Part shown: positions 8,237 through 10,316 of the stretch, one piece after another | Position numbering within the stretch: the stretch's first letter is position 1 | Layout of the letters: each line of letters starts with the position of its first letter | Assembly: GCF_014230055.1 (NCBI RefSeq) | Contig: NZ_JACHVA010000082.1 | Span: 124,001 to 188,000, forward strand | DNA from: Puniceicoccus vermicola | GTDB taxonomy: Bacteria; Verrucomicrobiota; Verrucomicrobiia; Opitutales; Puniceicoccaceae | DNA: 64,000 bases | Reading direction: 5' to 3' | The notes under the pieces: model-generated | Seen by the model: only the letters and a program-made list of their open reading frames with translations | What the model was told of the DNA's origin: nothing | Database searches by the model: none | Translations under genes and position numbers: made by a program

Positions 8237-8369
8237 CGCGAAAGTCGCTTACTTTGGGGTGGAGAAGTGACTCACTCCTTGGGCCTCCTGTGGGGAAGAA
8301 TGACTGAATTCGCAAATCCGATGATTTTTGGATTCGCCCGATCGGGATTGGGTCTTTACGAAGAGGATC

Positions 8370-8798
8370 ATGAAAATCTCTCTCGGAACGGATCACGCGG
8401 GCTACACTCACAAGGAAGCAGTCAAGAAGCACTTGGAAGAGGCGGGCTACGAGGTTCTTGATTTTGGAACCAATTCAGTCGAAGCTGTCGACTACCCGGA
8501 TTTCATTCGCCCGGCTGCGGAAGCAGTTCCCGCCGGCAAAGCCGATCGGGCCATCGTTTTTGGTGGAAGCGGAAACGGGGAAGCGATCACTGCGAATAAA
8601 GTGAAAGGAATTCGCTGTGCGCTTTGCTGGAATATTGAGACCGGTGAGCTGGCCAAGCAGCACAACGACGCCAATTGCCTATCCTTTGGTGCTCGCCAAA
8701 CTCCGGTGGATGAAGTTTTGAAGATTATCGACGCTTGGCTCGCGGCAAAATTCGAAGGCGGACGCCACGAGCGGCGCATCCAAAAGATTGAGAACTGA
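8370..8798 (+). CDS. rpiB: Ribose-5-phosphate isomerase B, Glu-type
   Basis: RpiB interconverts ribose 5-phosphate and ribulose 5-phosphate in the pentose phosphate pathway. The 142-residue protein from the ATG at 8370 (preceded by AGAGGA) begins MKISLGTDHAGYTHKEAVKKH, with GTDHAG typical. The active-site loop reads FGGSGNGEAITANKVKGIR instead of the cysteine-containing CGTGIGMSI form. This is the Mycobacterium-type variant, where a glutamate replaces the catalytic cysteine. Similar LacA/RpiB proteins act on other phosphosugars, so allose or galactose phosphates remain possible substrates. Confidence 0.9.
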   Translation: MKISLGTDHAGYTHKEAVKKHLEEAGYEVLDFGTNSVEAVDYPDFIRPAAEAVPAGKADRAIVFGGSGNGEAITANKVKGIRCALCWNIETGELAKQHNDANCLSFGARQTPVDEVLKIIDAWLAAKFEGGRHERRIQKIEN

Positions 8799-8867: not shown

Positions 8868-9470
8868 ATGGCTGAAATTATGCAGGCAAAAGAAAACCAA
8901 GAGGATAAGAAGAAAGAAGGCGGTTCGCTGTCAGAGATGGTGAAGAAACGCTTCCTCGAGGATCGTAAGATTTTTCTCTGGGGAGAAGTTTCCGATGATT
9001 CGATGAAAGAAGTCACCGAAAAGCTCCTCTACCTCGAATCCGAAGATCCCGGCAAGGAGATCAAGTTTTACATCAACACTCCCGGGGGCTCGATCACCGC
9101 TGGAATGGCGGCGTACGATACCATGAAGCTGATTTCCAGCCCCGTGACGGTCATTGTCACTGGGATGGCGGCGAGCATGGGCTCGATCCTTCTCTCGGGG
9201 GCTGACAAGGGGCGTAGATTCATTTACCCACACGGCCGGGTGCTGATTCACCAGCCGCTGATCAGCGGGACGTTCATGGCACCAGCCGTGGACATCAACA
9301 TCCAGGCCCAAGAGATGGAACGCATTCGCGATGAGCTGAACAAGATTCTTGCCGAAGCGTCAGGGAAGGATCTTTCCGTCATCGAGAATGACACGGATCG
9401 GGATTTCTACCTCACCGCCGAGGAATCGATTCAATACGGTCTCGTCGATGAGATCGTCACCAAGATCTGA
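8868..9470 (+). CDS. clpP: ATP-dependent Clp protease proteolytic subunit ClpP
   Basis: The 200-residue protein has the ClpP catalytic triad in place: Ser103 in GMAASMGS, His128 in RVLIHQPL and the aspartate of NDTDRD (174-179), with the INTPGG and SITAGMAAYDTM blocks before them. It forms the tetradecameric chamber that degrades substrates fed by ClpX or ClpA-type ATPases. No ATPase gene is adjacent. The charged leader (MAEIMQAKENQEDKKKEGG) is longer than usual and may be a propeptide; an alternative start is M5. The gene is followed after 12 bp by dapF. Confidence 0.95.
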   Translation: MAEIMQAKENQEDKKKEGGSLSEMVKKRFLEDRKIFLWGEVSDDSMKEVTEKLLYLESEDPGKEIKFYINTPGGSITAGMAAYDTMKLISSPVTVIVTGMAASMGSILLSGADKGRRFIYPHGRVLIHQPLISGTFMAPAVDINIQAQEMERIRDELNKILAEASGKDLSVIENDTDRDFYLTAEESIQYGLVDEIVTKI

Positions 9471-9482
9471 TTTCTTCCTCCA

Positions 9483-10316
9483 GTGAGCCTGGTTTTTCAA
9501 AAATACCACGCCCTCGGAAACGACTACTTCGTCCTCGATCCTTCGAGCGGCGAGCTGCCGGATTCGAAGGGGATCGAACTCGTCTGCCATCGTAACTTCG
9601 GGCTGGGTTCCGATGGGATCCTCTACGGGCCACTACCTTCCGAGGTGGCGGATTTCCGGCTGAGGATTCTGAATCCCGATGGCAGCGAGGCGGAAAAGAG
9701 CGGGAATGGCCTACGGATCTTTTGCCGCTACCTGCACGACCGGGGAGAGGTGACAGATCGCCCCTTCACGGTTGAGACTGAAGGTGGGGTCGTCTCCGCT
9801 TGCATCCACGACGCCTCCGAGAGCATTGAGGTCGAGATGGGGAAGGTTTCCTTTTCCAGTCAGGTGATCCCCGTGAACGGAGAGGAGCGAGAGGTCATTC
9901 AGGAAACGTTGGAGGCGAACGGCCAGAAAGTTGAGTTCTCGGCGGCAACCATCGGAAACCCTCATTGCGTGGTTCTACGCGACAAGGTTTCTGAGCAGGA
10001 AGCCCGTGACTTGGGACCGCATCTGGAGAATCATCCTCTTTTCCCGAATCGTACGAATGTGCAATTCCTGGAGGTGATCGACCGGGGCAACATCCGTTTG
10101 GAAATCTGGGAGCGCGGAGCGGGCTACACCTTGGCCTCGGGCAGCAGTTCCAGTGCGGCCGCTTCGGTCGCTCGCAAGCTGGGGCTTGTCGATTCGGATG
10201 TGACCGTGCACATGCCCGGAGGATTGCTGACTCTCTCGATCAGTGACGATTTCGCGGTTCGGATGACAGGTCCCGTTCGACTCATCGGCGAGCTGACTTG
10301 GACTCCCGAAGACTAA
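9483..10316 (+). CDS. dapF: Diaminopimelate epimerase-like protein lacking both catalytic cysteines
   Basis: The 277-residue protein has the DapF fold signatures: FQKYHALGNDYFVLD at the N-terminus, NFGLGSDG, RILNPDGSEAE, TIGNPHCV and RTNVQFLEV. DapF epimerises LL- to meso-diaminopimelate with two cysteines that act as acid and base. Here both are serine: the first motif reads EKSGNGLR (Ser73, codon AGC) and the second TLASGSSSSA (Ser219, codon TCG), where family members normally have CGNG and ACGTGA. The start is GTG at 9483. It could be a DapF working through serines, a divergent racemase, or an inactive paralogue; a normal dapF elsewhere would favour the last two. Confidence 0.85.
   Translation: MSLVFQKYHALGNDYFVLDPSSGELPDSKGIELVCHRNFGLGSDGILYGPLPSEVADFRLRILNPDGSEAEKSGNGLRIFCRYLHDRGEVTDRPFTVETEGGVVSACIHDASESIEVEMGKVSFSSQVIPVNGEEREVIQETLEANGQKVEFSAATIGNPHCVVLRDKVSEQEARDLGPHLENHPLFPNRTNVQFLEVIDRGNIRLEIWERGAGYTLASGSSSSAAASVARKLGLVDSDVTVHMPGGLLTLSISDDFAVRMTGPVRLIGELTWTPED

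Follow-up and report, generated by a model that had tools for sequence, protein, structure and literature searches.

Here we describe a homologue of diaminopimelate epimerase (DapF) in which serines stand at the positions of both catalytic cysteines. The gene lies on the forward strand at positions 9483 to 10316 of a 64,000-nucleotide stretch of the Puniceicoccus vermicola genome (contig NZ_JACHVA010000082.1, positions 124,001 to 188,000), which in its full length we call the window. DapF converts LL-diaminopimelate (LL-DAP) into meso-DAP for peptidoglycan and lysine, and it is a textbook case of an enzyme that racemises without a cofactor by means of two cysteines, which form a thiol/thiolate pair. 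We consider it likely that the window gene encodes the cell's DAP epimerase, turning LL-DAP into meso-DAP without catalytic thiols. The initial annotation of this gene had expected a nearly inactive protein, which now seems unlikely, since the serine-serine (Ser/Ser) gene is the sole DapF copy in most genomes, is invariant in its serines over deep divergence, is replaced only by enzymes known to form meso-DAP, and keeps all the DAP-binding residues tested. It also seems probable, on balance, that this is a thiol-free kind of DAP epimerase in which the two serine hydroxyls, together with tyrosines and a lysine peculiar to the clade, transfer the alpha-proton; many bacteria from several phyla would then rely on such an enzyme as their only source of meso-DAP, and neither oxidation nor thiol-directed inhibitors would affect it.

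The open reading frame (ORF) is intact, starts with GTG, and encodes a protein of 277 amino acids that matches the NCBIfam DapF model TIGR00652 over its full length (237.8 bits, curated cut-off 114.65) and PF01678 with 185.8 bits; the same TIGR00652 model matches 29 of 29 diverse Ser/Ser members. An AlphaFold2 model confidently shows the two-domain fold of DapF (predicted local distance difference test (pLDDT) 94.4, predicted template modelling score (pTM) 0.88), and solved DapF structures rank first in a Foldseek search with it, the top match being Pseudomonas aeruginosa DapF 8qzy at a template modelling (TM) score of 0.91-0.92. On the bifunctional DapF/glutamate racemase model NF038284 the protein reaches 81 bits against a cut-off of 350, and it has no match at E 1e-3 to the PhzF isomerase family TIGR00654. 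Its sequence matches are to DapF models only, outside the proline racemase superfamily, and its structural matches there are at about 15% identity. When the protein is aligned with the reference DapF of Haemophilus influenzae, C73 corresponds to Ser73 (codon AGC, 9699 to 9701) and C217 to Ser219 (codon TCG, 10137 to 10139), so the catalytic cysteines that define a DapF were looked for and found to be serine at both positions, which sets this type apart from plain members of the family. The PROSITE active-site signature of DapF calls for cysteine, as quoted in PMC8225329. Since the standard annotation model calls such a protein DapF, the Ser/Ser type is easily overlooked.

The double exchange reported by the initial annotation is thus upheld by the alignment and also by independent assemblies, because the Ser/Ser pair recurs in two congeners (G001, G002) and in another member of the family (G003), each assembled separately. 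In a comparison of 139 distinct Ser/Ser sequences with 94 Cys/Cys sequences, position 73 is serine in 100% of the former and cysteine in 100% of the latter, and Ser219 is invariant within the Ser/Ser clade. The codons for Ser73 are AGY in 105 sequences and TCN in 34, those for Ser219 TCN in 132 and AGY in seven; both serine codon boxes therefore occur at both positions, and it is the serine that is kept rather than one codon. Between congeners, the proportion of nonsynonymous differences (pN) in the window gene is 0.08 and that of synonymous differences (pS) 0.80, with the synonymous rate (dS) saturated. The subfamily is under strong purifying selection. A pseudogene or a sequencing error is ruled out by the conservation, the variety of serine codons and a pN well below pS. 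We also looked for a cysteine relocated nearby: there is no cysteine special to the clade, Cys162 is not invariant, and Cys35, which is invariant in an alignment of 29 Ser/Ser sequences, is near-invariant also when the Cys/Cys enzymes are aligned.

To describe how widely the type occurs, the contigs of an 84,980-species collection were scanned with two Ser-type peptide patterns, one of which specifies Ser73 itself; the scan therefore gives the breadth of the Ser type and not its share, and the share within the phylum comes from a separate, unselected phylum-wide sample. At least 574 relatives were confirmed, and the best 80 loci among them are all (80/80) Ser/Ser. Some of these loci are from Verrucomicrobiota; others stand in records that bear the labels Deltaproteobacteria, Desulfobacteraceae, Planctomycetota, Cyanobacteria, Armatimonadota, BRC1 and others, with Ser/Ser phyla also given as Thermodesulfobacteriota and Cyanobacteriota. 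The labels of metagenome-assembled genomes may be wrong; the named cyanobacteria Dulcicalothrix desertica and Westiellopsis prolifica are among the Ser/Ser loci. An alignment of 275 DapF entries, in which some loci of one genome repeat, holds 175 Ser/Ser, 95 Cys/Cys (one of them the reference), one Ser/Cys and no Cys/Ser sequences. DapF is present in 62 of the 70 genomes of the same order; seven (families f8 and f24) have a Cys/Cys DapF, G064 among them having both types, a divergent Ser/Cys protein occurs in one reduced genome, and the remaining DapFs are Ser/Ser as far as fragments show. Most of the other families in the phylum-wide sample carry Cys/Cys, which makes the Ser type an additional lineage and not a trait of the phylum as a whole.

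In a thorough tree built from 67 diverse sequences, a branch with 100/100 support, recovered in 100% of bootstrap trees, unites all Ser/Ser proteins, and a quick tree of 210 sequences agrees on a single clade. When the tree is rooted at its midpoint, for drawing only, this clade sits within the typical bacterial DapFs, with Cys enzymes of cyanobacteria and others close by. On these trees the Ser/Ser DapFs form one large, ancient, monophyletic subfamily that extends over several phyla, which answers a question raised by the initial annotation, namely whether Ser/Ser is a conserved clade among Opitutae homologues, and widens it, as the spread goes far beyond Opitutae. A 1.0 Mb genome (G036) carries a very divergent DapF homologue (L064:18-911) with serine at the first and cysteine at the second catalytic position, possibly an intermediate or a separate line.

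A second, conventional dapF, for which the initial annotation had proposed a search, is not found by PF01678 or TIGR00652 anywhere in the source genome of the window (G000, 5.2 Mb, 96% complete), and the genome search found no meso-DAP dehydrogenase (Ddh) there. The MurE of this genome belongs to the type that adds 2,6-DAP (NF001126, 527 bits, cut-off 373) and contains a DNPR motif, which we take to be a mark of that type, and a LysA-like decarboxylase (C5:24021-25232, L287) scores 250.7 bits against TIGR01048, below the cut-off. Together the DAP-adding MurE and the LysA-like decarboxylase point to a need for meso-DAP. On the route to LL-DAP, the genome has no DapL over the cut-off, and for DapD of the succinylase route it gives only weak partial matches. 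A LysA-like decarboxylase at about 240-285 bits, where the lysA cut-off is 297.9, is found in most genomes of the order, and these proteins may form a LysA branch of their own.

The same picture is seen in genomes in which a gene is unlikely to have been missed. The single-contig genomes G007, G180 and G183, and the finished chromosomes behind loci L094, L107 and L138, all have a Ser/Ser protein as their sole DapF and no Ddh. G007 also encodes a DapL (555.8 bits) and a LysA-like protein; DapL yields LL-DAP, and hence an epimerase is needed for meso-DAP. The Ser/Ser gene is retained even in reduced genomes of about 0.8-1.3 Mb. No second source of meso-DAP was found in the sole-copy genomes.

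Where the Ser/Ser gene is missing from a normal-sized, nearly complete genome, another enzyme stands in its place. Counting the genomes of the same order that are at least 90% complete, which are drafts, 48 have Ser/Ser alone, two have Ser/Ser with an alternative, nine are without Ser/Ser but have an alternative, and two have neither; when genomes no larger than about 1.3 Mb are omitted, these numbers become 41, two, nine and zero. All nine of the normal-sized genomes without Ser/Ser have Ddh or a Cys/Cys DapF (9/9; Fisher p about 1e-8, uncorrected for kinship). Within genus g18, Ddh is present and Ser/Ser absent in G019, and the reverse holds for G038, G052 and G067; genus g36 (G040, G054) repeats this. 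The swaps within g18 and between sister genera of family f20 indicate at least two takeovers by Ddh. In the phylum sample beyond the order, Ddh is present in eight of the nine DapF-less genomes, and most genomes with Ser/Ser as sole copy are without Ddh.

The substrate pocket argues for DAP as the substrate. The residues that contact the distal end of DAP in Anabaena DapF, reported as Asn66, Glu215, Arg216, Asn164 and Asn197 (PMC12039745), correspond to N64, E208, R209, N157 and N190 of H. influenzae, and all five are conserved in 80 of 80 loci and in 100% of the Ser/Ser clade, as are the equivalents of N11 and of the catalytic partner H159. N157 is conserved in the Ser/Ser clade although 74 of the 94 Cys/Cys sequences have Val there. 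In the window protein these residues are Asn13 (equivalent to N11, which contacts the substrate) within YHALGNDY (9504 to 9527), Asn159 and His161 of the Asn-Pro-His segment (9957 to 9965; N157 and H159), which are invariant in the clade, Asn192 (N190) of the segment at 10056 to 10064, which residue binds the distal carboxylate, and Glu210 and Arg211 (E208 and R209) of the segment E207-I-W-E210-R211-G-A-G-Y215-T-L-A-S219-G-S-S222-S (10101 to 10151). The initial annotation's remark that DapF motifs are otherwise well kept is therefore accurate, with the equivalents of N11, N64, N157, H159, N190, E208 and R209 all present.

Alongside the serines, a set of other residues has changed. Tyr8 and Tyr15, at the two ends of YHALGNDY, are invariant in the Ser/Ser clade, and their counterparts in Cys enzymes are M6 and F13, a Phe being kept at the latter position in 92 of the 94. 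In the segment K72-S73-G-N-G-L-R-I79 (9696 to 9719), Lys72 is found in 98% of the clade and is Met or Gln in Cys enzymes, and Ile79 is found in 100% and is Cys in 94 of 94 Cys/Cys sequences. Around Ser219, Glu207 (96% of the clade) is Arg in 98% of Cys enzymes, Tyr215 (100%) is Glu, Ile or Val, and Ser222 (99%) is Gly in 100%. Gly49, Gln194 (in the segment with Asn192) and Trp209 are further marks of the clade. The kept DAP contacts together with these concerted changes argue for a catalytic centre that was rebuilt around the same substrate and has not decayed. We infer that the Ser/Ser protein still epimerises DAP. The initial annotation had left room for an unusual mechanism or a new substrate; the evidence points to the former, and the kept DAP residues disfavour the latter.

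How the reaction would proceed without thiols is less certain. In DapF the thiols sit at helix N-termini and are tuned by the helix dipoles and backbone amides (PMC12039745). The hydroxyls of Ser73 and Ser219, at the N-termini of the facing helices, would stand in for the thiol/thiolate pair and act as the acid and base in a 1,1-proton transfer. Help for the serine pair would come from the conserved His161 and Glu210 and from the co-changed Tyr8, Tyr15, Lys72, Glu207, Tyr215 and Ser222; acid/base catalysis may be shared with, or have passed to, some of these co-changed residues.

Several observations weigh against an epimerase of this kind. Cys-to-Ser exchange leaves less than 0.1% of the activity in PddB, a Cys/Cys relative (PMC8225329), and greatly reduces activity in HisR, another (PMC11602996); as such exchanges are nearly lethal to activity in Cys backgrounds, the residues that changed with the serines are probably essential in the Ser/Ser enzyme. 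Some cyanobacteria hold Ser/Ser beside Cys/Cys copies, namely Dulcicalothrix desertica with two Ser/Ser and one Cys/Cys DapF (L280, L281, L160) and Westiellopsis prolifica with one Ser/Ser and two Cys/Cys (L279, L159, L277), and there the Ser/Ser copies may do something else; the caution of the initial annotation that a conventional dapF in the same genome would make the gene a paralogue applies to these two and not to G000. Ddh is also present in three Opitutaceae-like genomes with Ser/Ser (G037, G172, G191), whose meso-DAP may come from elsewhere. The LysA of the order is atypical and falls under the lysA cut-off, and the replacement statistic, drawn from draft genomes, takes no account of shared ancestry.

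In another reading of the same facts, the protein could possibly be a DAP epimerase that uses Tyr15, Tyr215, Lys72 or His161 as its acid/base residues, the serines serving to orient the substrate or to stabilise the carbanion. This would account for why Tyr8, Tyr15, Tyr215, Lys72, Glu207 and Ser222 changed together, are 96-100% conserved and are rare or absent in Cys enzymes, with Tyr15 in the place of the near-constant Phe, but both serines are 100% invariant and sit exactly at the thiol positions, and Lys72 is Ile in a few members with reduced genomes. Less compatible with the pocket is another substrate, whether a different amino acid or an elimination or isomerisation, with meso-DAP made by an unrecognised route. 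The cyanobacteria with both types fit such a role, and there is a parallel in the proline racemase superfamily, where Ser/Cys enzymes epimerise and a Ser/Thr enzyme dehydrates 3-hydroxyproline (PMC4113996). We regard it as unlikely, however, in view of the fully conserved DAP-specific residues, the fact that normal-sized genomes have lost Ser/Ser only if they carry Ddh or a Cys/Cys DapF, and the sole-copy genomes with no second meso-DAP source detected.

Bifunctionality, with D-glutamate and meso-DAP made by one protein, has been proposed from Chlamydia DapF for bacteria of the Planctomycetes-Verrucomicrobia-Chlamydiae group that are without the glutamate racemase MurI (PMC5885031). MurI exceeds its cut-off in only four of 70 genomes of the order, and two of these (G040, G054) are without Ser/Ser and have Ddh, murI and ddh adjoining in G054 (C18:63727-64485 and 64647-65633). 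The idea is nonetheless rather improbable here: a D-amino acid aminotransferase-like protein (about 200 bits, cut-off 277), nearly universal in free-living members, could make D-glutamate, G019 is without both DapF and MurI, Cys/Cys members are likewise without MurI, and the window protein falls far short on the bifunctional model (81 of 350 bits). A catalytically dead DapF retained as a DAP-binding or regulatory protein, for which the partnership of E. coli DapF with RppH is the comparison, would agree with the near-dead Cys-to-Ser mutants of Cys/Cys relatives, but it is very improbable, as it would leave most of the order and several closed genomes without a source of meso-DAP and the swap with Ddh unexplained.

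On the D-glutamate genes themselves, murI and ddh of G054 (L070, L291) lie side by side on the same strand, and in the sister genome G040 the two genes are on different contigs. The D-amino acid aminotransferase-like gene of the window's genome is at C141:10269-11108, has equivalents across the order, and might be the missing source of D-glutamate. Directly upstream of the window's dapF, on the same strand, are an rpiB-like gene (8328-8798) and a clpP-like gene (8868-9470), both named from reading their ORFs. The order rpiB-clpP-dapF is kept in two congeners (L019 and L023, the only loci with tblastn hits) and was not found in the other flanks examined. The neighbourhood was set aside as a guide to function, since neighbours differ and a reading of 14 loci by eye turned up no DAP gene, and a mobile-element origin was rejected, plasmid and phage relatives all being below 60% identity.

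In the literature searched we found no description of a Ser/Ser DapF, and the thiol-free subfamily, real and conserved, is apparently undescribed. It shares with the Cys/Cys DapFs (TIGR00652, PF01678; P. aeruginosa 8qzy, H. influenzae 1bwz) the family score, the two-domain fold (TM 0.91), the DAP contacts and the equivalents of His159 and Glu208, and differs from them in both catalytic residues, in about ten more concerted changes and in forming a separate clade. The nearest precedents are the Ser/Cys 4-hydroxyproline 2-epimerase, whose structure was solved with substrate, and the Ser/Thr trans-3-hydroxyproline dehydratase, which show that on the same fold a Ser can take over the catalytic place of a Cys, two-base epimerisation included (PMC4113996). 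These enzymes swap only one Cys for Ser, however, and belong to another superfamily, at about 15% identity, with another substrate. The laboratory mutants C73S and C217S of H. influenzae DapF (2q9h, 2q9j) carry the same substitutions one at a time and keep the fold, but they were made in a Cys enzyme that lacks the co-changed residues, where Cys-to-Ser exchange serves to hinder catalysis (PMC12039745). The aspartate/glutamate racemase EcL-DER of E. coli is a natural cofactor-independent racemase with Thr for one Cys, but of a different enzyme family, at one position only and with a one-way reaction (PMC8142540).

The finding bears on the debated cell wall of the Opitutales, in which DAP was long reported absent, as in Coraliomargarita (PMC3035286), and then found at a low level: in Lacunisphaera and Opitutus, for which the authors list DapL and DapF, sensitive gas chromatography/mass spectrometry detected DAP together with ornithine, the DAP at about one tenth of the level in E. 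coli (PMC5303756). Every locus labelled Opitutaceae that we fetched is Ser/Ser, and it might be, as speculation, that the low DAP reflects a slower epimerase. The cysteine pair is the basis of DapF inhibitors and of the signature motifs. If the Ser/Ser proteins are indeed DAP epimerases, the thiol pair would not be essential for DAP epimerisation, the residues changed with the serines would offer, beside the Cys enzymes, a natural comparison for removal of the alpha-proton by a base of very different pKa, and many bacteria would carry a DapF that is not open to thiol-directed inhibitors.
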